Position numbers and translations under genes: made by a program. From assembly GCA_027604665.1 (NCBI GenBank), contig JADGIZ010000057.1, forward strand, positions 1 to 33,166: 33,166 nt of DNA. The letters run 5' to 3'. This document shows, piece after piece, positions 4,219 to 27,792 of the stretch (within the stretch, counting starts at the first letter, position 1; each line of letters opens with the position of its first letter). The DNA is from Polyrhizophydium stewartii. Its lineage: Eukaryota; Chytridiomycota; Chytridiomycetes; Rhizophydiales. The notes under the pieces are model-generated. The model had not been told where the DNA came from, searched no databases, and was given only the letters and a program-made list of their open reading frames with translations.

Positions 4219-6491
4219 TCAGTACCCGTACGCAGCAGTCCTGCGCGCAATCTCGGCGTCGTCCGCGGCGTCGGCTCCAGCGCCGGCGGCCGAGTCGAAG
4301 ACATCCTCGGTCTCGATGTCGTGGCGCGCCATCTGGTCCATGGTGGGCACCGTGAACTTTCGCCGCTTCGTCGGCGGTGCTGGCTTCTTTGTGTCAGGGG
4401 CGGTCCCAGCTGGCGGCGGCAGCATCGCCTTTGTCGGCGAGGGCGGCGAGGCCAACGGCGGCGTCAGCCGCACGGGCGATGCAGGTGCATGCATCGATGT
4501 GGTTCGTGCACGAGGCGAGATCAGTCCCTTTGTCGGGATGGCGACGGGGATCGCAGCAGATCCAGTCGAGGACGCCGACGGCGAGCGCGGCGGAAGCGAG
4601 GGCGACTTTGGTGACACGCCCGTTGTCCTGACGGGGCTCGGAACCGCAAAGACGGGCTTGGGCTGCGAGAGCGAGGGCGACAGAGCAGGTGTCACTGTCG
4701 GCGATCCAGCCGCGGGCGATGCAGCCGCTGCCGGCGATGCTGAAGCCGACGCTGAAATCGAAGCGGTCGCAGAGACTGCTGAAGACGAGCGAGTAAAGCT
4801 TGAGCCGGGCTTTAGATCGAGCTCGGCGGGCTTGACGAGCTTGATCAGCTTATCGAGGCGAGCAATCTCGGCCTCGTGCTGCTTGAGCAGCTTCTCGTCT
4901 GCGGCCGTCGACTCTGACTGGATGCTCTTGTTGACCGTGGACATGAACTTATCGAGCTCGTCCTGGCCGTCCTCGGCATCTTTGGGCTGCTGGGCCGAAC
5001 TCGCGGCCTGCTGTATCCGTTCGCGCAGCTGCTCGATTTCAATGACGAGCTCGGCTCGCTTGGCGGTCAGGCTGTCGAAAGTCTCGACCTTGTCCTGTTG
5101 CGCAGATCCCTTGTTCTTTGCTTTCTTTCCCTCGGCTGCACGCAGCGTCGGTCAGTACAAGACGACAGCGGGAATTAGCAGGCACACACGGCAACAGCAC
5201 ATACTCATGGTGCGATCGTAGAAAGTGTCCTGATCGTCGTCATCTTCGCCGTAGAGCTCGCGCATGCGCTTCTTCTGGCGCTCAGCGGCCTCTGCGCCGC
5301 TGCCCCGCAGGACACCGAGCTTGTCGAGCTTGGCGCACGCCTCGAGACATGCATTGCGCTCGGCATCGCGCTTCCTACCCGCGCGGCCAGTCGCGCTCAG
5401 CGTGCCCATGCCGGTCTCAACAGGCAGCTCGATGCGCGCCGTGTACGTGCGCATGGCGCCAGGACCTTCCTCCTCGTACTGAAAGGCCATCTCGTCGCCG
5501 CGCGACTCGAACCACACACGCAGGGCCTTGCGCGGGTCGGCAAAGTAGAACGCATTTGGGTCGATGGATGCAATGTCGATGGCGGACATGTCAATGTCCT
5601 TGCCGGCAAACTCGTCGCCCTCGTAGGCGTCCTCGGCGAAGCCCCAGGTAACGCCCGTGTCCTCGGGCGGATCCGGCTCCGCGCGGGGGCGGGTCGGCGC
5701 CAGCGTCGTCTTGAAGGCGATCTCGGGCTGCTCCTGCTCGGGTCCCATGAGAATGTGCACGCGAGTGCTCTGCCCAAAGCGCACCATATCTGCAGCGAGG
5801 TGATGCCGTCAGCGCCTGCGGACCGGCTCGGCTGCGGGGGACAGCCGGCAGCGGGACGATCGGCGACTCGGGACAGCAGGCTGTGAGTGACGGGATGCTC
5901 ACCGCCAGCGCGGATGGGCCGGAACTCGCGCTTGGGCAGCAGCACCTTGTTGAGGAAGGTGCCGTGGCTGCTGCCGAGGTCGTAGATGAAGGCAGACCCG
6001 TCTGTCTTGAACTGGATCACGGCATGGTAGCGCGAGATGCTCTGTGGGTGGGTGTGGGGGGGGGGGCGGGCTGGCAGCGGCGTCGGGGCGGTCGGACATT
6101 GTCGCAGCGCGGCCGCACCTGGTGATCGAGCGGCACGTCGCAGACGGGCAGCCGGCCAAAGACAATGTACTCTTGGCGGAACAGCGGGGTCTGGTCGACG
6201 ATTGCGCCGCCCTTGATGGCCTGCGGGACGGCGGGGAGCATGCGTGCGGGGTGTCGGGTAAGCAGACGCAGCAGCGGGCATGCGATGCAGGGCGGCCGCG
6301 ACCTCGAGGAAGTAGTCGACTGGCGGTGCCGCAGACCACGGTGGCGGCGTGTACGGCAGCGGCGGCGGCTGTGGCGGTGCGGGGCGGCCAGCCTGCCGTG
6401 GCGGCGGCTGCGGTGGCTGCGGCTGCTGCGGCTGCTGCGGCGGGCGTGGGGCCGGGGCCGCGAACGCCGGCGGTGGTGGTGCGTCGGCCAT
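4219..6491 (-). CDS. SLC4A1AP: Kanadaptin (FHA-domain nuclear protein)
   Basis: Five exons: 6491-6303, 6220-6119, 6041-5903, 5789-5205, 5135-4219 (about 643 residues). A Pro/Gln-rich leader precedes a forkhead-associated domain (about 64-155) with IVFGRLPVCDVPLDH, SISRYHAVIQF and DLGSSHGTFLNK, the typical phosphothreonine-binding loops. Next is a double-stranded-RNA-binding-like region (about 220-305: DPRKALRVWF, RNACLEACAKLDKLGVL), the acidic DDDDQDTFYDRT motif and coiled coils with VETFDSLTAKRAEL. The Ser/Pro-rich tail ends in a basic KRRKF and a terminal YGY, as in animal kanadaptins (742-796 residues). Relatives are nuclear and linked to RNA processing; the molecular role is poorly known. 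The ATG at 6491 is chosen because the longer frame begins with TTG. It is divergent from FCHO/SYP1. Confidence 0.93.
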
Positions 6492-6711
6492 GGGCAAACT
6501 CGGCGGCGCGGCCGCTGGCCGAGGTTGCCCGCACCGCAGCCGCCGCCTGCAGCCGCCCGCCTGCCATGGCCTTCACCGCCGCCTTTGCCGTGAGCGGCCG
6601 CACCCGCAGCAGCCGCCGTACGCCATCTGCCGCCTGCTGACGCCGGCACTGCCTGTCCCTCGCCGCGCCGGCGTGCCGATCCCCTTGGCGACATGCGGTG
6701 ACAATGGCGAC
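6492..6711. promoter_or_regulatory. Shared divergent promoter, kanadaptin/SYP1
   Basis: These 220 bp separate two divergent start codons, so both promoters must lie here or inside the genes. The sequence is very GC-rich and I see no TATA box. Near the SYP1 end are a minimal uORF (ATG-CGG-TGA, 6693-6701) and an out-of-frame ATG at 6704, just before the SYP1 ATG at 6712. Confidence 0.5.
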
Positions 6712-9614: not shown

Positions 9615-9620
9615 AATAAA
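9615..9620 (+). terminator. Poly(A) signal AATAAA of SYP1
   Basis: A canonical AATAAA lies 226 nt after the SYP1 stop and 62 nt before the NAN1 start. The 293-bp gap 9390-9682 is otherwise pyrimidine-rich and holds no ORF that I can support. Confidence 0.6.
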
Positions 9621-9682
9621 CATGCGCTCTCACCGAGATCGGCGTTGGTTGCATTTTTCGGCACTTTGACCGCCAGCCGCCA

Positions 9683-12600
9683 ATGCCGCGCCATCACGAC
9701 CCCGACGCACCCGCGCGGGGCGCCTCCGCGGCGGCCGCCGATGCAGATGCCGCCGAGCCAGAGACGCAGCCCGCGGCGGCAGCGCCGCTCTCTGATGGTG
9801 CCGCGGCGGCCGAGCCGTCGGCGCCCAAGAAGCGCAAGTCGCGCAGGCACAAGCAGAGTGCTGGCACACAATCAAGCGACGCCGACCCGGCGCACCACGC
9901 CGCGGCGCAGGAGGCGGCCGATGCAGACGCCGTGGGGCCTTGGCACAACAGCACCAGCACCGGCGGTCGCCTCAACGACTGCCATGCCGTCTTCTCGGCC
10001 GACTCAACGTGCGTCGCCGTGTGTCGCCCGTTGCCCGCCCGTCGCTGTTTTTTTGTCGCTCACTTTTTTTCTTTTTGGTGTTGGCGCCGTCCGGCCAACC
10101 GACCTGGATCCCGCCGCCGCCGCCCGCTCGCCTGCCCGCCCGGCGTGCGCAGCCACTTCTTCTGCGGAAACGGCGCAAATGTCAAGATGTACTCTGTTTC
10201 ATCCGGCCTTGTTGTGCGCACGCTCATGCCGCCGCACGCTGCCTCAAAAGGCCCGATGGTCGTGTCCATCCAGCTCAACCCGTTCCGGCAAGGCCAGATC
10301 CTGGCTGCCTTCTCCAACGGCGTCGTTGCACAGTGGGACTACTCGACCGGCGCCGTGACCGAGGTGCGCACGCTCATTCTGCCGAGTCCATTGCGAACGA
10401 GACAACCCTCTGACGCTCTGCACGTTCAATCGCATGCCTCGTGCGCAGCAATGGAACTTCAAGCGGCCCGTGACGCAGATGCTGGTCAGCGCATCCCGCC
10501 CCAACGAGATCTTTGTGGTGACAAACGAAAAGTACGAGAAGCAGAGCGAGCGGTCCGGCAAGACGCAGCACCGCGAGCGCGGCACGGTGCTGCAGATGCA
10601 CATGCACACGCGCGATCTGCGCATTGCATTCGAGTCGCGCAAGGAGCCCGTCGTGAGCATCGGATTCGCGGCGCTCGGCAGCGTGCTCGTTGTTGCCGTG
10701 CCAATGGCCTTCTACCTCACTGATGTCGCCGGCGGCGACAAGGACGCCAAGCGCGGCCCGCGGCGGTGAGGCTTGTCGCTGGCCGGGCATCGTGTGCAGT
10801 CGCTGCGTGCTGACCCGCGCGCAGCTTTGAAGTCTCGGAGCGCATCGTGTCTCTGGCCGTCAACCCCGCGCAGCCCTTTGTTGCGACGGGCGACGTGCGC
10901 GGCCGCATCCATCTGTGGTACTGCTTCAACCTCGCCGAGGGCCAGAAGCCCGTGTCGTCGCTGCTGCACTGGCATGCGCACCAGGTCAATGCACTCAGCT
11001 TCACGCCCGACGGCACGTTCCTGGTCTCGGGCGGCGACGAGGCCGTGCTGGTGCTGTGGCAGCTCGAGACTGGAAGCAAGCAGTTTGTGCCGCGCATGGG
11101 CTCCGAGATCACGTCGGTGAGCATCAGCGGCGACCAGATGCTCTATGCCGTCGGCCACAAGGACAACAGCGTGCGCATCGTGTCCGTCACGGACATGCGC
11201 ATCCGCCAGGCCGTCGCGGGCGTCAAGTGCGCCAACGTCAACCACCGCGTGTACCCTATGACCGCAGGCCTTGTCGTCGACCCGCGCAGCGCGAGCGTCG
11301 TACTCAACGGCTACCCGGGCTCGATCCAGTTCTACAACGCCACCACGGACCAGTCCGTGTCCGACATTGACGTGTCTCCGCGCAACCGCGTGACGCGCAT
11401 CGAGGACCGCGAGATCCTGCGGCCGCATGTGCACCACATCCAGTTCTCGGCCGACGGCGAGTGGATGGCCACGGTCGACGTGCGCGACGACAAGGTGTTT
11501 GCGACCGAGACGTATCTCAAGTTCTGGCGGTACAACAGCGACGCACAGACGTTCATGGTCAACACGCGCGTCGATGCTCCGCACGACGGCGCCGTCACAA
11601 GCGTGCGGTTCCAGCCGCCCGTCGCCGGCCGCCCGCTGCTCGCCGTCACGACTGGCGCAGACAAGGTGTTCAAGGTTTGGGAGCTCGTTGAGGCGACCAA
11701 CGACCGCGAGTCGACGGTCTGGACGTGCCGCTCGACGGGATTCTTCAAGTCGCTCCCCGCGCAGGATGCGGCGTTCTCGGACGACGGCACGATCCTGGCT
11801 GTTGCGTTTGGACCAATCGTGACGCTGTGGGACCCGGAAACAAACTTGCTGCACTCGACTCTGACGTACGCGCCGTCGGCCGAGCCGGTGACTCGGATGG
11901 CGTTTGCGCGCGGCGAGCCGTATCTGGCCGTGGCGACGGCGTCGCACATGCACGTGTGGAACATCGTGACTGCTTCCGTGGCGTGGTCGCTGCGCGCGCG
12001 CGTCACGCACCTTATCGCCGACCCGCGATCGCCCCGCCTGCTGGTGCTCGCACACGAGCCCGAGGCGGATCGACCGCCGCTGCTGGCGCTTTTCGAGCCC
12101 AGCTCGCCCGTGCCCGTGTTTGCCAAGAGCATGGCGTCCAAGGTGCACGGCATCGCATTCTCGCAGGGCATCGAGGCCTCGCGCATCACATACCTCGACG
12201 CCGAGTTCCGGTTCCAGACACTCGTCAGGGACTCGGCCGTGGCGAGCGCGCTGTCGGCCGCCGAGGCCGCCGAGGAGCAGGCTGCGCACAAGTCACTGTT
12301 CACGAGTATATATGGCGAGACGATCTACCGCACGTCGCGCCAGGACGACGGCCCCGCGGGCGCTGGCAAGTCTGCGACGGCTGTGCGGTCCAGAGATGAC
12401 GCTGCCGGCGCCGCTGCGGATGCAACTGCGGCGCCCGGTGCACACTCTGCGACGTCGGCTGGCGCCGCGCTTGCGTTCCTCGAGGCACCTTCGCACATTG
12501 TGGCGGCGCCGTCCAAGCTCATTGAGTCGTTCATGGACCAGCTCTTGACGCGCCGCGAGGCATTCGACGCGGCCGACTTTGTGCACGGCGGCGATGACGA

Positions 12601-13108
12601 CGAGGAGCAGGCATCCGAAGCCGAGGACGCGGACTCGGCGGACGCCGTTGCTGTTGCGGCGGCCGCCGCTGCCGCTTCGGCCCACGACGTCGCTACGATG
12701 GCTGCGCCACCGACAGCATTCCTCGAGTCGTTCTTCTCGCGGCTGTTCGTGTCGGCGCCGTCGGCCGGTGCAGCCGCCAAAGAGGCATCTGCATCGTCCG
12801 TCAGGGCCGCCAACGGCGCGGTGAATGGAGCACCCAAGGACGCTACTCCTGCCGAGGCTTCTGCGGGCAAGGGCTCGGCCAAATCGGCTTCAGCGTCCGC
12901 GGCAGCCACGCCCAAAAGCGCAAAGGCTCCGGCCAAGGCTCCGGCCAAGGCTCCGGCCAAGGCGGCCGCTGTAGCAACACCAACGCCCGCGCCAAAGGCC
13001 AATGGCGCAGCACATGCTGCCGGCGTTGCGAATGACGGGGAAGCGGCTGCGGCCGCCAAGCCTGCATCGGGGAATCGGTCAAAGAAGAGGGCCTACGACG
13101 GGGCATGA
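9683..13108 (+). CDS. NAN1: U3 snoRNP WD-repeat protein Nan1/Utp17 (WDR75)
   Basis: Four exons: 9683-10008, 10153-10363, 10449-10765, 10825-13108 (about 1045 residues). After an Ala-rich leader with a nuclear-localisation-like KKRKSRRHK (about 49-57), the protein is a tandem WD40 array. It includes NDCHAVFSADST, VSIQLNPFRQGQILAAFSNG, FVATGDVRGRIHLWY, HWHAHQVNALSFTPDGTFL and SGGDEAVLVLWQLETG, the last being the hallmark region of this family. Relatives belong to the t-UTP/UtpA subcomplex of the small-subunit processome, which acts in pre-18S processing and rDNA transcription. The C-terminal 250 residues are low-complexity Ala/Lys/Pro with three APAK units. The protein is longer than the yeast one (about 896). 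The 10766 donor overlaps an in-frame TGA, so intron retention would truncate the product. Confidence 0.92.
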
Positions 13109-16017: not shown

Positions 16018-18223
16018 CTTGATGCACTGGATGGCCGTCTTTTGCGTGTCAACAACAATGGCGTCCATGTTCTTGCCAAGCACGACCGAGACGGCCGTGT
16101 TGAATCGCTTCTGCGTCGTCTGGCACAGATCCGACAGCCGCCCGTGCACGCCCGAGAACAGGCGCTTGAGCGTCTCGAGCGTCTCGCGCTTCTTCTTGTT
16201 GCGCTCCGACTCGTGGCGGTCGGCGCGCTCCTGCAGCAGGCGGCTGGCAATCTCGGCCAGCCGCTCGTTGGCCTCGCCCTCTTGCTGCGCAAGCCGCCTG
16301 AGCGTCGTGTCCATGTCCGAGAGGCGCTTCCTGGCGCCGGCCAGCTCCTCGCGCGACTGCTCGAGCTTGCCGGCAATCTGGCGGCGATGGTTGTGGTCGG
16401 GATCGCGGGTGAGGCAAGGTCAGCAAGCGCCAAAAACAAGCCAGTGCGAAAGCATAGCGGACGCACCTTGGCGCGCCGCTGCTCGTGGGTGCGGCGGTCC
16501 TGCGACAGCATCTTGCTGCGGGCCTGCTGTTCGTCGACCTTCTCCTGAATACGCTTGCGTGCCTCGCTGGCGGTCTGCAGCTGCACCTGCAGCAGCTGCA
16601 GCGTCTGGCGCTCGGCAAACGTGCGGGCATCGGCCTCGGCACGGCTGCGACGGCGGGTCAGCACGGCGGGTCAGCACGGCGGGTCAGCACGGCGGGTCAG
16701 CACGGCGGGTCAGCACGGCGGGTCAGCACGGCGGGTGAGCACGGCGCGTCCCACAAGGTGAACGTCGCTAAAGCATCCATGCACGCAAATGCACGCGCGC
16801 AAAAGATACGACTCACAGCTTGTTGTACTCTTTGATCTGCGCGGCGCCAAGCGACTTGGCCTGCTTGTCAGCCGAAGCCCTTGTTTCTTCCTCAAACTGG
16901 TCAATGGCCCTGCCCACGCGGCCCAGATCCGCGTCGAGCGAGCGCACGAGCTCGCGCTGGGCATCAAGCTCAGCCTGTGCCTCGGTAAGATGCTTCAGCG
17001 CCGTCTGGCGCTTGGCAGCAACGTGCTTGACCTGCTCGTCGACGCGGAGCAAGTCGGGCTTGAGCTCGTCCATGTCCTTTTGCGTGTTCTTGGCCTCGTT
17101 TTCGGCCCGCAGCAGCTTGCGCTGCGCCGCAGCGTGCTCCTTTTTGGTCGCGGCAACGTCGGCCTGGGCGGCCTCCATATCGTTGGTGATGGCGGTCGCC
17201 GAGGCCGAGTCCTTGGCCAGATCGGCGTGGATGCGCTCGGCACGCTTGTCAATGTGGAAGAGCTTCCACAGGCAGTGTGTCTCGACGAGCTTGTCCTGCA
17301 TTGCGCGCACGAGATAAGCGGGTCAGCGTGTCGGACGTGTGCAAGGGGAGGGAGGAGAGAGAAGATGGAAGCGGGCGAGCCGACGACGCACCCGTCTGTC
17401 CTGCAGCTCGTCGTAGCGCTCGGCCTCCTGCCTCTGCTCGCGGAACTGCTTCATCTCTGCATTGACGTTGCGCTTCTTTGAGAAGTTGAGGGCCGAGTTC
17501 TCGGTGGCAAGCTCGAGGGCCGACTTGAGGCGGTCGTACTCGTCCTTGAGCTCGATGGACCTGAGGAGGCGTGAGACGCCGGCGCGGTGAGACAGAGACA
17601 CTGGATGCGTCAGCGCTGCAATGGCAGCGGCCATAGGGGGGGGAGCTGGGAATCGATGGGATGATGTAGAGACGAAAGACTCGGCGTGGGAGCGGGAGCA
17701 CGACGCACCCGCTGATCTGCTCAATGAGCCTGGTGAGGTCCTTTGGCGACTGCGACGCCACGGCCTCGACATCGCCCTGGAAGACGAGGAAGTTGCGGGC
17801 CTTGACGAGGATGTTTTCGGCCTTGAGGATGGCGAGGTACTTTGAGTAGGTCAGGACCTTGTTGCCGACCTTGTAGTCGCTGGTGCCGTTGGCGTTGATG
17901 CTGTGAGCGGATGGTGAAACACGCACCGTTGGTAAGCAACGGGGTGGTGGTGGTTCCGAGCACACAGGAGGGGGTGACGCCGGCGGGCACGCACGTGCGG
18001 GTGAAGACGATGCGGGAGCCGTCTGCCGTTTCGTACACGGCTGAGACGGACGCCGTGGTCGGGTTGGCGTCTGGGTCGTCAGGGCCTGGCGAGTCCGAGT
18101 CGGCGGCTGCCGAGGGGTCGGAGCCCCGGCTGCGGTAGACGAGGTCGCGCAGCTGGACGGAGCGCAGGTGGGCTGACTTGACGCCGAGCACGAAGCTGAT
18201 GGCGTCCATCAGGTTCGACTTGC
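16018..18223 (-). CDS. SMC1: Cohesin SMC1, N-terminal half, truncated at both ends
   Basis: Six exons: 18223-17995, 17900-17709, 17560-17392, 17295-16817, 16644-16467, 16377-16018 (about 535 residues). The visible part begins inside the Walker A motif (GKSNLMDAISFVLGVKSAHLR) and includes NFLVFQGDVEAVASQSPKDL and TRLIEQISGS, diagnostic for SMC1. A long coiled coil follows, then the first half of the hinge (GRLSDLCQTTQKRF, VLGKNMDAIVVDTQKT). It stops at the donor after QCIK (16017). The exon carrying the start and the first half of the P-loop is not upstream, where a poly-Gln ORF lies. The second hinge half, return coiled coil and signature/Walker B head are absent downstream, where the ZIP gene begins. 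All visible exons are intact and in phase. It may be a partial duplicate, a split gene or a mis-assembly. Confidence 0.88.
16655..16745 (-). repeat. 13-bp minisatellite in an SMC1 intron
   Basis: Seven tandem copies of GGGTCAGCACGGC (plus strand), the last with one mismatch, lie in the intron 16645-16816. On the SMC1 strand each unit reads GCCGTGCTGACCC and so contains GCTGAC, the branch-site motif used throughout this window. The intron (172 nt) is about twice the usual length because of it. Confidence 0.9.
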
Positions 18224-18461
18224 CTGTGCGTGCGGGGGCGCCGGCGGGCGGCGGGCGCGGCTCACCTGGCCGGGCAGACTGTGCATGCGTGGGAAGGCGG
18301 CGCCGCCGGGCAGCTGGCGGCTGGGCGGGAAGCCGCTCTGCGGGAACCCCTGCGGCGGCGGCGGCTGCATGCCCGGCGGGCCCGCGGGCCCGCGCATCTG
18401 CGGCGGGTAGCCCTGCGGCGGCTGCGGCGGGTAGCCCTGCGGGGGCGGCTGCTGCTGCGGC

Positions 18462-18497
<36 letters not shown>

Positions 18498-19023
18498 GCG
18501 CGCTGCTGGAACTGCGCCGGCGGCGGCTGCATGGCGTCCTGCTCGCCCTTCTTCTTGCCCCATCCAAAGAGCGAGACGCCGGCGCCCGTCTGGCGCTTGC
18601 TCTTCTTCTTGGCGGCCGAGTCCTGCGCAGGGCCGCCGGCGTATCCGCGCTGGCCGGGCGGCTCCGACGGGCCCGTGTTGCGCAGGAAGTCGGCCAGCAG
18701 CTGCGTGTCCGACGGCCCGCGGGTCGGCGCGGCCGCGCGGCCAAAGTCGTCGTCGTCGCCCTCGAGGATGGCGTCGACCGAGTTGCGGCGGCGCGGCGGC
18801 GGGCCCATGGACGGCGGCGGCGGCGGGCTCTTGACGGTGGGGATCGAGACGGGCGGGTTGTAGGACTCGCGCTTGCGGCGTGCACCGTCGGGCGTCGGCT
18901 GCAGCAGCGGGGTGGGGCTATAGTATTTGGAGTCAAAGTCCATATCAAACTGTGACACGGAAGGCGGCGGCTGGAACAGAGCCTTCTGCTGCTGGAACTG
19001 CGGCGGCTGCTGTTGCTGCTGGA

Positions 19024-21190: not shown

Positions 21191-21568
21191 CGGGCGGACA
21201 GCGGCACGCTCATCAAGCTCGGCAAGGCGACTATCGGCGCCTTCAGCCGCAGACAGAAACTCGTGACGCAGTCGACCGCCTAGGCCGAATATGTGGCGAT
21301 CAACGACGCTGCGGCTCCGACCGTCTGGCTCCGTCGAATCCTCGAGTCTCTCGAGGAGCCACAATCGGAACCGACCGTGATCTTCACGGACAACATGGCG
21401 GCCCAGCATCTCAGCAACCACGCCAGGCATCACGACTGCTCCAAGCACATAGACATCAAGTTCCACCGCGTCCGCGAACTCGTCGGCGACAAGATCGTCA
21501 AAGTCGAGGGTGTTCGCACACAGGATTGTGCACCGAGTGGAAGCGTCATCAAAGCCCAGCATGCATAA
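21191..21568 (+). mobile_element. Decayed Ty1/copia RNase H fragment
   Basis: One reading frame over about 125 codons matches the C-terminal RNase H region of copia polyproteins. It has RADSGTLIKLGKATIGAFS, RRQKLVTQSTA, then AEYVAINDAAAPTVWLRRIL, TVIFTDNMAAQHLSNHA and KHIDIKFHRVRELV. An in-frame TAG (21281-21283) replaces the usual Glu codon of the STAEAEY motif. The sequence upstream has lost frame. No gag, integrase, reverse transcriptase or LTR pair is recognisable, so this is a relic. It ends ten bases before the first ATG of the LRR gene frame. Confidence 0.82.
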
Positions 21569-21658: not shown

Positions 21659-24600
21659 ATGGACAACAGAACCGAGACCGCCGCGCAGCCTGGGAGCTCG
21701 GCCGACACTGCGGCGACAAAGCCGCCCAAGCGGCGCAGCTACTTTCGTCTGTTCAGGCGCTCCAGCCGTGACCATACATACACCCGCGACGAGCACGCCA
21801 GCAGCCCGTCGTCTGCCTCGCCCGCCTCGCCCGCCTCGCCCGCCTCGCCCGCCTCGCCCGCCTCGCCCGCCTCGCCCGCCTCGCCCGCCCCCTCGCAGGC
21901 CCAAGGATCCGACAAGGTGCGCCGGCACCGCCGAGTGCACCTGCGCACGGCCTGTGCACTACGCCTGCCGAGGCTGACCAGCCCCCGCAGCGCCGCGACG
22001 AGTTGCTTGCACTGCTCGACGGCGCCTCAGAGTCGGTCCGGAGCAAGACCGGCCTGCCAGATCAGGACTTTGAGCGCATCGTCGACGAGGTCATGGATGG
22101 GCTCTTTGACCTGCGCGGCCGCTTCATGAGCGCCCGTGCCGCCGCGGACGCAGCCAAGGTGTCGGCCAACGACCAGGCCGATAGCAAGGCGGTGCAAGCC
22201 TTTGAACGCCTGCGAGGAGTGCTCAACGCCGCGGCCAATGTGGGTACCGCACGCACGGCGACGTGAACGCACCGACCTCGCTTGAGCTCACCGCCAGGGT
22301 CCGCTGCTCGCAGAACCAAGAGACGATCAAGGCGGCCTGCGAGGTGTTTGTGCAGGAGATCGGCCCCAGCGCTCCCAAGGTCGACGTCGACACCGTCGCC
22401 AACATCGCCACGCTGTCGTCGTCGGTTGTCGAGTTTATCGAGCTTCTCAACCGCCCGCGCGACCCCGGCACCAAGGGCGTGCAGTCCGTCACCCGCTTCC
22501 TTGCCACAAACGGCCTCGAGATCGCCTCGACCGTCGTCAACGTCGCCAAGGCCGCAGCCGACTTTGTGCCGATTCCCGGACTCTCCACGGCCATCGGCAT
22601 CATCGACAAGATCCTCAAGAACATTGGCGACAGCCGCGATGCACCCAAGATAATGCAGGCGTTCTGCGCCGACTTGGCCGAGATCAAGGCGATCATTGCA
22701 CCAATGGCCAACCAGTGGTTCTCGGCGGACGTGCGGCGCAAGTGCAGCGACCTTGTCGCGCTGCTCAAGGAGGCCGACGCGGCTGTCGAGCGCGGCAAGG
22801 CCGATGCAAAGACATGGCGTGCGCTCATGGGCGGCGCCAGCTCCAAGATGGCCGCGCACGTCGAAGGCCTGCGCAGGCAGCTCTCCAAGATCAAGGAGCT
22901 GCTGTCGCTCGCCATGCAAGTCGACAGTGCCATGATGCTGATGCGCATGGCCAAGCAGATCAACATCATCGATGTCAAGTCGGACAAGATGCTTGCGTGC
23001 GTGGCCTTGTGCCGCACCGTGCGTCTGCCTGTCGCGCGCCGCTGACTTGTGCACTCGCCGCTGCTGCAGGCTGCTCCGCCCGCGCACGCTGCTGCTGCGG
23101 CACGACGACTTCATGGTTGCGCCCAGGCCAATCAACTCGTCGGGCGTGTTCCGCGTGTTCGAGGCCAAGATGGACGGCAGCCCGTTTGTGATCAAGGAGT
23201 TCCGCCACGGCATCGAAGGAATCGAGGAGGCAATCGAGGCTGAGGCGCAGCGCTGGTTCAACGCCAACCACCCGAACCTGCTGCAGCTCACGGGCATCTG
23301 CCTTGAGTCAGACACAAAGACGGGACGCGGGCCGTTCATTGCGATGCCGTTTGTCGAGCATGACCTCAAGTCGTTTGCTGCCGCGAATCCTGATCTCGGC
23401 ATGGACGACAAGCTGAGCATCCTGCTGCGCATTGCCCGTGGACTCAAGTACCTACACGACTACGCGCCAGGAGCGCCCATTGTGCACAGCAGCTTGACGC
23501 TGCGCCATGTGCGGATCGGTAAGTCAGTTGCAGCACGCTCCGTCGCCGCTTGCTGGCTTGCTTGATTACTGACTGCCGCATAATTGGTATGCAGAAACAA
23601 AGGAGCAGGTCGTCGACGGCGTCCGCGTCCCCAAAGTCCGCCAGGTCATGATCGTGCCGGCCATCAGCACCGGCACTGCAAGCGCCGATGACCCCAACAG
23701 GGACGCCTTCACGGCGCCAGAGATGCAGGAAAACAACTTTGAGCCAGATGCCAAGCAGGACATTTTCTCGTTTGGCGTTCTTGCGTTCTCGCTCGTTCTA
23801 CGCATGCAGCCAGCTGAAGTGAGAGAATCAGATCTCAAGCGGCCAGACGGGTTTGACGAGCAGTTGTGGTTGAGGCTCGAGCGCTCAATCAGCCCCAAGG
23901 TCTTCAACCGGCCCAAGATCGACGAGATTATTTCGCGGCTGAACATCCTGCTCAAGACAGGTAAGCGCCGCTCTGTGCTGCTCGCAACATAGGGCGTACT
24001 GACGCACGCGCTTGTTGATGAAGAGCTCAAGCCAGCAAGATCAGGCGCATCGGACATTGAGTTGTTATGCGCCGCGTTCCCCGAATGGTGCAAGGACAGC
24101 AATATCTGGCCCGGATTCCTCGATCCCACCGGCGACCTGGTCACCGTGTTTGACGCCGAGACGCAGCGCAGCATGGCCAAGTGGCGGCTCGAGTGGGACT
24201 CGGAGCACAATCTTACTGCCCTGTGCGTCGCTGCACGGTCAAAGGCTGTTCCAAGATGCGATGACAGCTGACGCTGCCTGTCGCGGCTGCAGGCGCCTGA
24301 CAGGATGCGGCATTGCCGGACAGATCCCGACCGACGTCGGCCGTATGACTCAGCTGACGACTCTGTAGGCTGCTAGTGCCTGCGTATCTGCACACCCTCG
24401 CGTTCCGTATGCTGACCGCCGTGACGCAGCTGGCTCGACCAGAACGAGTTTGACGGCGTCATCCCAGCAGAGATCTACAACCTGCACAAGCTGAAGTCGC
24501 TGTGGGTGCCAGACTCTTCCGGCTTCCACTCTGAGCTTGCTAACGGTGGCCATCAGGCGCCTGGCTCAGAACAGGCTAACGGGATCTGTGTCGGCAATCA

Positions 24601-27600
24601 TTGGCAGACTGAAGGAGCTCGTCGATCTGTAAGACGGCGTGCCAGATCAGTTTGCCGCTCTTGGCCATGGTTCTGATTATGTACATCCAGCGACATCTCT
24701 GACTGCAGCATTGACGAGCTGCCGGAGAGTATCCGCAGCCTCCTCAACCTCAAGAACCTGTAAGTGATGATCCGATTCGGGGAACTCCAGCGAGCCAGGC
24801 GTCGAGTTAACACGCGTCTGCACAGTAACGCTTCTGGAACTCCGATCAAGCAGCTGCCTCAGTCGATTGGCACGCTGCAGTCACTCGAGATCGTGTGAGT
24901 TGCGCTTGGTGATTTGGTGCTGGCCGTCGGACACTGACACGACGCTTGAGTCGCGCGTCTGGCCGCAACATCGAGGCGCTGCCCGCAAGTATCACGGACC
25001 TGGGCAACTTGCAAATCCTGTGAGTGACGAACTGGGAACTTCCGTTTCCGACTATTGTTTCTGACGAGATGCTTGTGTGCAGGGATCTGTCGCACGTCAA
25101 GAGCTCGGACGGCGCCAACGGAATCTCCGAGCTTCCTCACGACATTGGCAGATTGGCGAGCCTTGCGGAGCTGTAAGTTGTGTCGCACCGATCGGACCGC
25201 ATCCCGGCACTGCTGACGCCAAAATCCCAGGACGCTCGCAAACCATCAAATCAAATGCCTTCCGGACAGCATCGGCGAGCTCATGTTCCTTCACAAGCTG
25301 TGAGTCGCGGTGCGCACGCAACCGACTCAGATCCAAAGGCTGATCGTGCGTGCACCGACAGCAATATTCAGGGTAACCAGCTCAAGGAACTACCCAACTC
25401 GCTGTGCAATCTTGTTCATCTATACGAGCTGTGAGCCACGACGCCTGAACCGCGACTCGTTCATGATCGCAGCTGACGCCTCCACCAAGCAACCTGGGCA
25501 ACAACTTGATATCCAGCCTGCCAGACCGTATCGGCGATCTCGCCCTGCTCAAGAAGCTGTGAGTTGCAAATTCACTCTTGGATGCGCGGAGCACCGGCTG
25601 ATGCAAATACGTCACAGTAATCTCGGCAGGAATCGCCTTGACGCCGTGCCAGACTCGATCAGCCAGCTCGCGCGACTCACGCACCTGTGAGTTGTTTCGT
25701 CGATCTGGCCTGCATAGCTCGGGCTGACTGTGTCAAACAACTTACAGATCTCTCCGCGAGAACCGGATCTCGGCTTTCCCAGAGTCTGTGTGCCTGCTGA
25801 AGGAGCTGCAAGAGATGTAAGAGGCTCTCATAGCAGATCCTTGCTGTTGCGGCTCGGGCTCATGCGGCAGTGTTACAGCGACCTCGGTTACAACCAAGTT
25901 GTCACTGTCCCTGAAGCCGTGTCGCAGCTCAAGACACTCGAGAGGCTGTAAGCCTGGCTCGGTGCAGCTGCGATAAAATGACTCACGCCAGCACTAACAC
26001 TAAGGTCGGCCAGCCAACTGAACAACAACCAGATCGAGAGCCTGCCCGAGTCGCTCGGCCAACTCAAACGCCTCGTTGAGCTGTAAGACGGAGCTTCTCA
26101 GCAGGCGCACCTCACATCACGTTGCTGACTGCCCAACACGCAGCTCCCTGGGCCGAAACAAACTGACAAGTCTTCCCGAGACTATTGGTGGGCTCGAGAA
26201 CATCACAACCATGTGAGTTCAGCCGACACGCGCTTCTACTCTGATTGCACGACGCTGACGACTGCATATTGCAGCCATCTTAGCTTCAACCAGCTGCAAA
26301 GCCTGCCAGAGTCGCTTGGACTTCTCAAGGAGCTCGCTTGGCTGTGAGCGTCTCTGAAGGCAGAGACACGCGGCTGAATGGGCGGCTGATACACTTGCTT
26401 CGCAGATATGTGAACGACAACCGACTCTCAAGCCTTCCAGAGTCGATTGGACACCTGAGAAATCTCGAGAAGCTGTCAGTTGCATTGACGTCAAAATCGC
26501 CGTGCGCTGCGGTGCTGGCGCGCTGACGCACTGAACTGCCAGTCACGCAAACAACAATCAGATCTCGCATCTGCCTGAGAGCTTCACGAAGCTCGTCAGG
26601 CTCTCTGATCTGTCCGTGGCCTGACTTGCTCGATCACGTTGCCGCGTCGCGGCGTGTTGAACTGACTTTGTATTGCGCCTAGCAACATGCGCAGGAACCG
26701 GCTGGCGAGCCTGCCGGACCGATTCGGCCAGCTTCAAGATCTCGAGAAACTGTGAGATATTCTCGAAAGCGCAAGAGGAGCTTCAACACGGGGACGCTGA
26801 CATGCCCTGGTTTTGCGCAGATCGCTGAGCCAGAACTCCCTGTCGAGCCTGCCAAACTCGCTCTGCGATCTGAAGCAGCTCAGCTGGCTGTGAGGCAGAA
26901 TAGTTGAGGCGCATCCTATGTTTGGCTGGTCGACTGACATGGGCGACGTGCAGCTACATCAGCGCAAATCGGCTTTCCAGCCTGCCAGATTCGCTTTCCA
27001 GGCTCAAGCATCTGGTTTGGCTGTGAGTGCCGTGCGTATCTGGGAAGCTGCGTGCACTGCGTGTCTGACATTTGGTGCTGCAGAGATGCGAGTGGGAACA
27101 ACATCGCTAGTCTGCCGCAATCCATCGAAGAGCTCAAGCACCTGAACTCGCTGTAAGTGGCATCCCAGTGACTTGGCGAGGGCCGCGATGACGCTGACAC
27201 TCTCGGCCTTGACAGCTTCTTGAGCGGCAACCCAATCGCAAACCTGCCAGAGAGCATCGGCAAGCTCCGAAGCCTCGAGAAACTGTGGGTTAAACATCAT
27301 CTGTTCGCTGGACGCTTGCTTTGGTGGCTGACTTTGGTCTGTTGCAGCGACTGCGGTGGCGGCCAGCTCACCCAGCTCCCTGGATCGATTGGCGAGCTCA
27401 AGCACCTCACTTGGCTGTGAGAAAATGTCACAGCAGTATCACCGCGACGAGATATGCACGGCTGACACGCCGACTTGACAGCTGCGTTGACGACAACCAA
27501 CTTCGCAGCCTTCCTGATTCGCTCTCGCAGCTCAAGAAGCTCGTGCGGCTGTAAGTTCCGGCTGTGCATCCGCTGTTTCGACGAATCGTGCCTGACACAG

Positions 27601-27792
27601 AGCTGCAGGAGCATCAGGAACAACATGATCGAGACGAAGCCGCTCTTCTTCTCCACGCTCACCGGCACCACCTTGTGAGATGCACAGCGATTGCGGCAGC
27701 GCTGATGTGGTGTCGGCGTGCTGACAGCACAACTCACACGCAGCGTCGAGGACGGCAATCCGTATGCCCTCGCAGAGGCCGAGCAGGCCTGA
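21659..27792 (+). CDS. MLKL-like helical domain / pseudokinase / LRR protein
   Basis: A 33-exon gene of about 1357 residues. The first six exons are 21659-21916, 21991-22239, 22314-22996, 23070-23518, 23595-23960 and 24024-24222. The next 26 (24293-27674) are leucine-rich repeats, and the last is 27744-27792. In order the protein has a basic N-terminus (KPPKRRSYFRLFRR), an SPA-repeat linker, a helical region of about 310 residues, a kinase-fold domain (about 410-665), a short joining segment and the LRR array (735-1341), with a 16-residue tail. There is no signal peptide or membrane helix, so it is probably cytosolic with the LRRs as sensor. The helical part carries a VPIPGLSTAIG motif seen in MLKL/HeLo-like N-terminal domains (established for fungal and plant relatives). 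The kinase has lost its catalytic residues. A role in regulated cell death or self/non-self recognition is an inference. An in-frame ATG at 21578 would add 27 residues. Confidence 0.85.
21815..21886 (+). repeat. 9-bp tandem repeat coding (ASP)n
   Basis: Eight perfect copies of GCCTCGCCC in exon 1 of the LRR gene encode Ala-Ser-Pro units, a flexible linker between the basic N-terminus and the helical domain. Its perfection suggests recent expansion. Confidence 0.9.
22314..22996 (+). other. Exon encoding MLKL/HeLo-like helical region
   Basis: This exon (residues about 170-396) is predicted all-helical, with the hydrophobic helix and turn VAKAAADFVPIPGLSTAIGI followed by IDKILKNIGDSRDAPKIM. Long amphipathic helices follow (DVRRKCSDLVALLKEADAAV, LRRQLSKIKELLSLAMQVDS). 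The PxPGL turn after an amphipathic helix is the signature I know from MLKL-NTD-like domains of fungi and plants. The exon 2 product (LLALLDGASESVRSKTG...) is also helical and could be part of the same bundle. Confidence 0.6.
23070..23960 (+). other. Pseudokinase domain segment (exons 4-5)
   Basis: Kinase-fold landmarks are clear: the beta-3 lysine in FVIKEF (about K439), NHPNLLQLTGICLE, the hinge region FIAMPFVEHDL, LRIARGLKYLHD, TAPEM in place of the APE motif (about 586-590) and DIFSFGVLAFSLVL. The Gly-rich loop is reduced (INSSGVFRVFEAKM). The HRD catalytic loop reads HSSLTLRHV (about 536) and no DFG is found between it and APE, where VMIVPAIS stands instead. Two key aspartates are missing, so catalysis is unlikely. 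The fold is closest to the tyrosine-kinase-like group. Confidence 0.85.
24293..27674 (+). repeat. Leucine-rich repeat array, one repeat per exon
   Basis: Exons: 24293-24364, 24430-24501, 24557-24628, 24691-24759, 24826-24894, 24951-25019, 25083-25172, 25231-25299, 25362-25430, 25490-25558, 25618-25686, 25748-25816, 25879-25947, 26014-26082, 26144-26212, 26275-26343, 26406-26474, 26543-26611, 26683-26751, 26821-26889, 26954-27022, 27084-27152, 27216-27284, 27348-27416, 27482-27550, 27609-27674. All are phase 2, splitting the leucine codon CT|N at the repeat boundary. Twenty-one are exactly 69 nt (23 residues). The first three are 72 nt with plant-type xGxIP features (QIPTDVGRMTQLTTL). The fourth onward follow LxxNxLxxLPxSIGxLxxL. 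Exon 13 (25083-25172) carries a 7-residue insertion, and the last is a degenerate cap. Confidence 0.93.

Follow-up and report, generated by a model that had tools for sequence, protein, structure and literature searches.

MLKL couples a helical region to a pseudokinase that keeps the beta-3 lysine and has lost the HRD and DFG motifs, with HGK and GFE at these positions. Related arrangements are known from fungi. HELL domains occur together with a kinase or pseudokinase (PMC12881547), MLKL homologs with Sel1 repeats were found only in Glomeromycotina (PMC8778642), in HET-S and HeLo proteins it is a helix at the extreme N terminus that does the work (PMC12881547), and Goodbye-like and basidiomycete MLKL heads carry an N-terminal extension (PMC9815663). 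On the side of sensing, a 2010 survey reports that leucine-rich repeat (LRR) receptors are almost entirely absent from fungi and that the chytrid B. dendrobatidis has four LRR-kinase genes without a membrane helix (PMC2939053), and a 2025 review reports that no LRRs have been identified in fungal nucleotide-binding LRR proteins (NLRs) (PMC12881547). Here we describe a gene that joins a helical head, a kinase domain without catalytic motifs, and a long LRR array in one predicted chain. It lies at positions 21659 to 27792 on the forward strand of a 33,166-nucleotide stretch of contig JADGIZ010000057.1 of Polyrhizophydium stewartii, referred to as the window. Among the papers listed by the literature searches, up to 20 per search, none describes this three-part architecture in its title or the opening of its abstract; the collection searched lacks most subscription journals and bioRxiv preprints.

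Architecture of the gene and its family

Rebuilt from the DNA by splicing, the gene has 33 exons with GT-AG borders at 32 of 32 introns, encodes 1,357 amino acids, and ends with a stop codon at 27790 to 27792. The order along the chain, from the spliced model and Pfam, is helical part, kinase domain, cap-like segment, and 26 LRR exons, in agreement with the initial annotation of this locus. Splice sites were picked, partly by hand, to keep the frame open and to give LRR-like exon lengths, so the gene model depends in part on the LRR reading. This selection also lends some weight to an artifact, in which the model would have merged an adjacent head-plus-kinase gene with an LRR gene. We consider such a merger highly improbable because LRR families are found in the same chain in 17 of 18 database relatives from two species, which are gene models too (the exception, P0009, stops after two repeats), and because exon 6 and its border to the first LRR keep both phase and sequence.

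Exon 1 (21659 to 21916, residues 1 to 86) encodes a low-complexity tail rich in serine, proline, and alanine with a basic, aromatic patch, KRRSYFRLFRRS, and a similar patch, KRGGVFKLFGRS, occupies the same place at the N terminus of P0002, a predicted P. stewartii protein of the same family. Short basic or aromatic patches in a low-complexity tail were seen at several family N termini (FRLFRRS, FKLFGRS, RLFGCAA, and YDRLICG), some with cysteines, and are possible membrane anchors. Exon 2 (21991 to 22239, residues 87 to 169) encodes a predicted helical N-terminal extension with 33 to 50% identity to six paralogous loci across 45 to 66 residues; its counterpart in the P0002 structure model consists of helices modeled at low confidence. 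Exon 3 (22314 to 22996, residues 170 to 396) holds the helical domain, including the motif VPIPGL at residues 254 to 259 (22566 to 22583), which corresponds to the PxPGL signature initially reported. A 19-residue hydropathy scan detected neither a membrane helix nor a hydrophobic N terminus in the predicted protein: the best mean was 1.32 over the whole chain and −0.55 over the hydrophilic N-terminal ~60 residues. The protein was thus rightly described as lacking a signal peptide and a membrane helix.

The kinase domain is encoded by exon 4 (23070 to 23518), which carries the N-lobe and the catalytic loop, and exon 5 (23595 to 23960), which carries the C-lobe. It matches Pfam PK_Tyr_Ser-Thr (PF07714) with 42.1 bits (E value of 8.5e-11, cut-off of 23.1), and an NCBIfam search gave matches far under the cut-off, mostly to kinases. 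The beta-3 lysine K439 is retained (VIK), HRD is replaced by H536-S-S, and VPA stands at the DFG position, followed by a conserved APE. The beta-3 lysine is present in 17 of 17 aligned homologs, while the HRD aspartate is absent from all 15 that have letters at this position and DFG from 16 of 16. Among the 10 genome loci with an exon 3 match, the aspartate is lost in nine, the window included, and kept in one, on contig C474. Because the catalytic motifs are missing across homologs and loci alike, their loss is a family trait rather than decay, and the domain is predicted to be inactive, as first proposed. Exon 5 diverges rapidly: it is matched at six pseudokinase loci, with identities of 26 to 50%. 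In comparisons with five paralogs, exons 3 and 4 had dN/dS values of 0.36 to 0.45 (0.34 to 0.42 for exon 3 alone), which places the reading frame under constraint.

Exon 6 (24024 to 24222, residues 669 to 734) encodes a conserved cap-like segment before the first LRR. Exons 7 to 32 (24293 to 27674) are 66 to 90 bases long (21 of 69, three of 72, one of 90, and one of 66) and encode roughly one LRR apiece; exon 33 (27744 to 27792) adds the C terminus VEDGNPYALAEAEQA and the stop codon. Pfam LRR_14 matched the protein with an E value of 7.9e-89. The count of 26 LRRs given initially stands as a count of exons, although a strict LRR pattern counts ~22 and the last LRR exon is degenerate. The short LRR exons all lie between introns of a single phase, a layout that allows repeats to be added or removed. 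In the P0002 structure model, the LRR part has a predicted local distance difference test score (pLDDT) mostly >90 and resembles the structures of bacterial LRR proteins, SHOC2, and plant LRR receptors. Its alignments with plant LRR receptor ectodomains, defined by their first and last residues only, start at residues 667 to 669, which is where the exon 6-like segment starts. Plant LRR receptor kinases and fungal LRR-kinase genes likewise combine LRRs with a TKL/TK-like kinase domain, but the window protein differs from the plant receptors in its reversed domain order, its lost kinase motifs, its MLKL-like head, and the absence of a signal peptide and membrane helix. It also differs from NLRs, in that Pfam listed no NACHT or NB-ARC domain at an E value of ≤10 and a kinase domain lies between head and LRRs instead.

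The initial annotation treated this as a single gene. We found instead a family of nine pseudokinase loci in the genome of P. stewartii, with live-kinase sisters described below. The eight further loci (on contigs C161, C409, C135, C253, C660, C512, C218, and C114, whose names are used for the loci) match the head and kinase domain, and each is followed by LRR-like sequence, recognized by pattern rather than from full gene models. Two alignments were used, one of 10 heads and one of nine pseudokinase rows plus C474. Database searches, one of which scored the 7,991 candidates sharing the most five-residue words, returned 18 predicted proteins forming one family with the nine loci, nine from P. 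stewartii (P0001 to P0008 and P0015, representing about six loci, with three pairs that look like second models) and nine from Entophlyctis helioformis (P0009 to P0014 and P0016 to P0018). A search for distant helical relatives with P0016, which depends on shared five-residue words, found the same two species only. Over exon-length pieces, four loci (C409, C135, C161, and C218) are 97 to 100% identical to P. stewartii proteins; the best partner of the window gene among the proteins found reaches 88.5% in exon 3, and this gene may be absent from the protein annotation. Locus C218 has two tandem matches to the helical head. In the annotation of P0015, which matches this locus, ANF receptor and 7tm_3 domains precede the family domains within a single chain, an odd arrangement that probably reflects fusion of gene models. 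We conclude that the arrangement of a helical part, a kinase domain without catalytic motifs, and an LRR array is a real, constrained, family-wide architecture.

The helical head, its sisters, and a possible mode of action

MLKL_N (PF22215) is the best Pfam family for the helical core of the window protein, with 22.5 bits by hmmscan (E value of 8.9e-5) against a cut-off of 27; the whole protein scored 18.6 bits (E value of 1.4e-3), a further hmmscan gave 20.8 bits, and a six-frame scan of the genome gave 22.3 bits for residues 300 to 384 (22704 to 22958). The profile matched six of 10 family heads of ~310 to 355 residues (best E value of 6e-5). When cores of 179 to 180 residues were used, two of four matched in the forward direction and none of the six that had been reversed as a control, out of ten cores. 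The genome scan gave seven MLKL_N matches at an E value of ≤1. Five of them were exon 3 of this family, at five of its nine loci; of the remaining two, one passes the cut-off and lies on contig C623, next to kinase genes that have HGDLK and DFG. P-x-P-G is present in the window protein and 16 of 17 aligned homologs (the exception is P0012). Homology of the head to MLKL is likely, although the similarity is weak and sub-threshold.

Structure prediction of residues 170 to 396 gave an all-helical model, most of whose C-terminal part aligns to four-helix bundles. An outcome that would have spoken against the proposed helical bundle was thus not seen, but confidence is low, with a mean pLDDT of 55.7, and the bundles matched are generic ones. 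Helices also precede the core in low-confidence models, which may be a likeness to the Goodbye-like and basidiomycete MLKL_NTD heads with their extensions; the window protein has no Pfam match to Goodbye-like families, and those heads sit on NACHT or NB-ARC proteins where this one has a pseudokinase. The fold search with the P0002 model was filled by LRR matches and bears on the LRR part rather than the head, and the absence of MLKL from the fold-search lists excludes nothing.

In two sister proteins, P0019 (C575) and P0020 (C310), an MLKL_N-like head (19.7 and 16.1 bits, both sub-threshold) is joined to a kinase domain that retains HGDLK and DFG, together with a cap-like segment and LRRs. A search with the first 200 residues of a live-kinase sister, again dependent on shared five-residue words, found P. 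stewartii only. Contig C623 carries HGDLK/DFG kinase genes. The last of these is followed by an MLKL_N head (27.0 bits by hmmscan, at the cut-off) that also weakly matches PigL_N and Goodbye (0.052 and 0.35) and whose own kinase, if any, lies past the contig end. Live- and dead-kinase classes thus appear to share one layout, in a split resembling that of RIPK3 and MLKL, which is new here. The P0019/P0020 sisters would be candidates for an activating kinase of the RIPK type. The C474 gene, which has VPVPL in its head and whose kinase domain keeps HGD while reading NFN at the DFG position, is perhaps intermediate between the two classes. A related kinase-LRR gene at positions 111 to 962 of contig C454 has the opposite pattern, with HRD kept, glutamine at the beta-3 lysine position, and GFG at the DFG position.

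We tentatively favor, at somewhat less than an even chance, the reading that the window protein acts within the cell as an MLKL-like membrane effector gated by its LRRs. The LRR array and cap would hold the pseudokinase closed and mask the helical bundle; a bound ligand, or a P0019/P0020-type sister kinase with intact motifs acting by phosphorylation, would shift the pseudokinase; and the released bundle would oligomerize and attack a membrane. The switch, its trigger, the membrane attack, and a role in cell death or immunity are inferred, as is the recombinational exchange of modules discussed below. The fungal HELL-kinase proteins and Glomeromycotina MLKL homologs are comparable, in that they join a bundle to a kinase or pseudokinase, or an MLKL homolog to repeats, though the repeats of the latter are Sel1 and those of the window protein LRRs.

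Several observations weigh against membrane attack. No head of the pseudokinase-LRR family reaches the MLKL_N cut-off of 27 bits; the profile misses four of 10 heads, the P0007 and P0009 cores, and the C114 and C474 heads, and it finds nothing at four of nine family loci in the genome scan. When the helical alignment was run as a profile against solved structures, 12 matches were obtained (best E value of 0.23), none an MLKL chain, so that of the proposed link to MLKL the Pfam match stands while a match to a solved MLKL bundle was not obtained. The helical models have low confidence, and none of 487 Foldseek matches reached ≤0.001, all being to generic helical bundles. The family core compared with three heads of live-kinase genes gave a probability of 13% in local and 6% in global mode. 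Approximately 250 residues precede the MLKL_N-like bundle, whose match lies at 300 to 384 of 1,357 residues. Since the bundle is not N-terminal, helix release of the HET-S type is not to be assumed; the hydrophilic N terminus of the window protein departs from HET-S and HELLP executioners with their membrane-active N-terminal helix. The sequence itself carries no sign of membrane binding, death, or immunity. Finally, the kinase family profile, which matches 1,808 distinct PDB sequences at 0.001, is nearest to tyrosine kinases (chain 7t6f first, then EGFR and MET), with an MLKL chain 58th among the best 60 of the 1,808. The protein therefore differs from MLKL in its sub-threshold head, the residues before its bundle, its C-terminal LRR array, and a kinase domain whose nearest relatives lie elsewhere.

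The kinase result also bears on a second reading, a signaling receptor or scaffold without killing, in which the head would serve dimerization or localization, the pseudokinase would control live sister kinases allosterically, and the LRRs would choose the partner or ligand. JAK pseudokinase domains and STRAD provide examples of kinases controlled allosterically by pseudokinases. The best profile match, 7t6f (presumably JAK1), aligns through two kinase-like stretches, some sister proteins with the same domain layout retain their kinase motifs, the LRR array resembles that of the cytosolic scaffold SHOC2, and the MLKL match is sub-threshold. Against this, no Pfam family matches the head better than MLKL_N, whose matches across the genome fall mostly in this family; the head is the most conserved part of the protein; and HeLo and HELL domains, related to the MLKL bundle, are known fungal killer domains (PMC12881547). 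We rank the scaffold closely behind gated membrane attack, as a serious possibility but second to it.

Uneven divergence of heads and sensors

Synonymous divergence (dS) was compared for six of the nine pseudokinase loci (C512, C218, and C114 were left out) with 1,000 bootstraps. In 13 of 15 pairs, dS was lower in exons 3 and 4 than in exons 5 and 6, in at least 986 of 1,000 bootstraps. Four of five comparisons between the window gene and a paralog gave three- to fivefold-lower values in the helical and N-lobe exons than in the C-lobe and cap exons (0.26 versus 1.32 for C161 and 0.34 versus 1.56 for C409). The fifth, with C660, showed no clear difference (0.72 versus 0.88; 190 of 1,000 bootstraps), and the pair C135 and C253 was reversed, with 0.19 in front and 0.03 in the back.

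A block with 88% identity to C161 extends from 22309 to 23526, covers exons 3 and 4 with the intron between them, and ends just beyond the exon 4/intron 4 border, and a block with 88% identity to C409 stops at 23523. Blocks shared with C135 and C253 (80 and 78%) continue to 23863, within exon 5, and are less clear for recombination. C135 and C253 share a stretch of 2,978 bp at 92% identity, past which just a 95-base piece matches, and they have 15 and 3 LRR pattern matches, respectively (~7 by eye in C253). Trees were built from 13 of 19 rows (the window protein and P0001 to P0018), after removal of presumed second models (P0001, P0006, and P0008), rows with gaps in the kinase region (P0015 and P0017), and one row that was not in the alignment (P0018). 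Along the tree path between the E. helioformis proteins P0016 and P0012, there were 0.28 changes per column in the back (window residues 590 to 734) versus 1.04 in front (222 to 546).

Because the C161 block takes in intron 3 but breaks off at the end of exon 4, the C409 block is similar, and the C135/C253 pair is reversed, we favor recombination between paralogs, which likely keeps heads alike while C-lobes and sensors are swapped. Among the new findings this is the strongest, although a mutation-rate effect or misalignment may still underlie the high dS of exons 5 and 6. Uneven divergence of front and back and exchange of modules are the pattern of recognition genes. In a third reading, the protein belongs to an LRR kinase-like family with a developmental or nutritional role, for example in sensing of self-peptides, whose expansion in Rhizophydiales had no link to defense. 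The expansion in copy number, the likely exchange of modules, and the differing LRR arrays of recent duplicates fit the pattern of recognition genes instead, and we judge the developmental reading improbable.

Genomic neighborhood and implications

A short open frame at 21284 to 21568 on the forward strand, ~90 bases before the start codon, resembles by eye the last part of a Ty1/copia-type RNase H but has no Pfam match; it is perhaps a mobile-element remnant adjoining the gene. The other neighbors are a WDR75-like beta-propeller gene (9620 to 13105, forward strand), a gene with an SMC_N match under the cut-off (17724 to 18917, reverse strand), and one with an FHA domain (5400 to 6572, reverse strand).

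In its broadest form, gated membrane attack would extend to a necroptosis-like immune repertoire in Rhizophydiales, made up of dead-kinase killers and live-kinase activators with the same LRR layout, in which a pseudokinase replaces the nucleotide-binding switch of NLRs, modules of C-lobe and LRRs are swapped, and gene conversion keeps the head uniform. We regard this full picture as rather unlikely. If gated membrane attack is true, the family would offer a further route from LRR sensing to membrane attack, in addition to those of NLRs and receptor kinases, with a pseudokinase in place of the nucleotide-binding domain. The presence of live- and dead-kinase sisters in one genome would make the origin of a RIPK3/MLKL-like pair testable, and the mosaic divergence predicts that heads should be exchangeable among the members of this family while their sensors are private.

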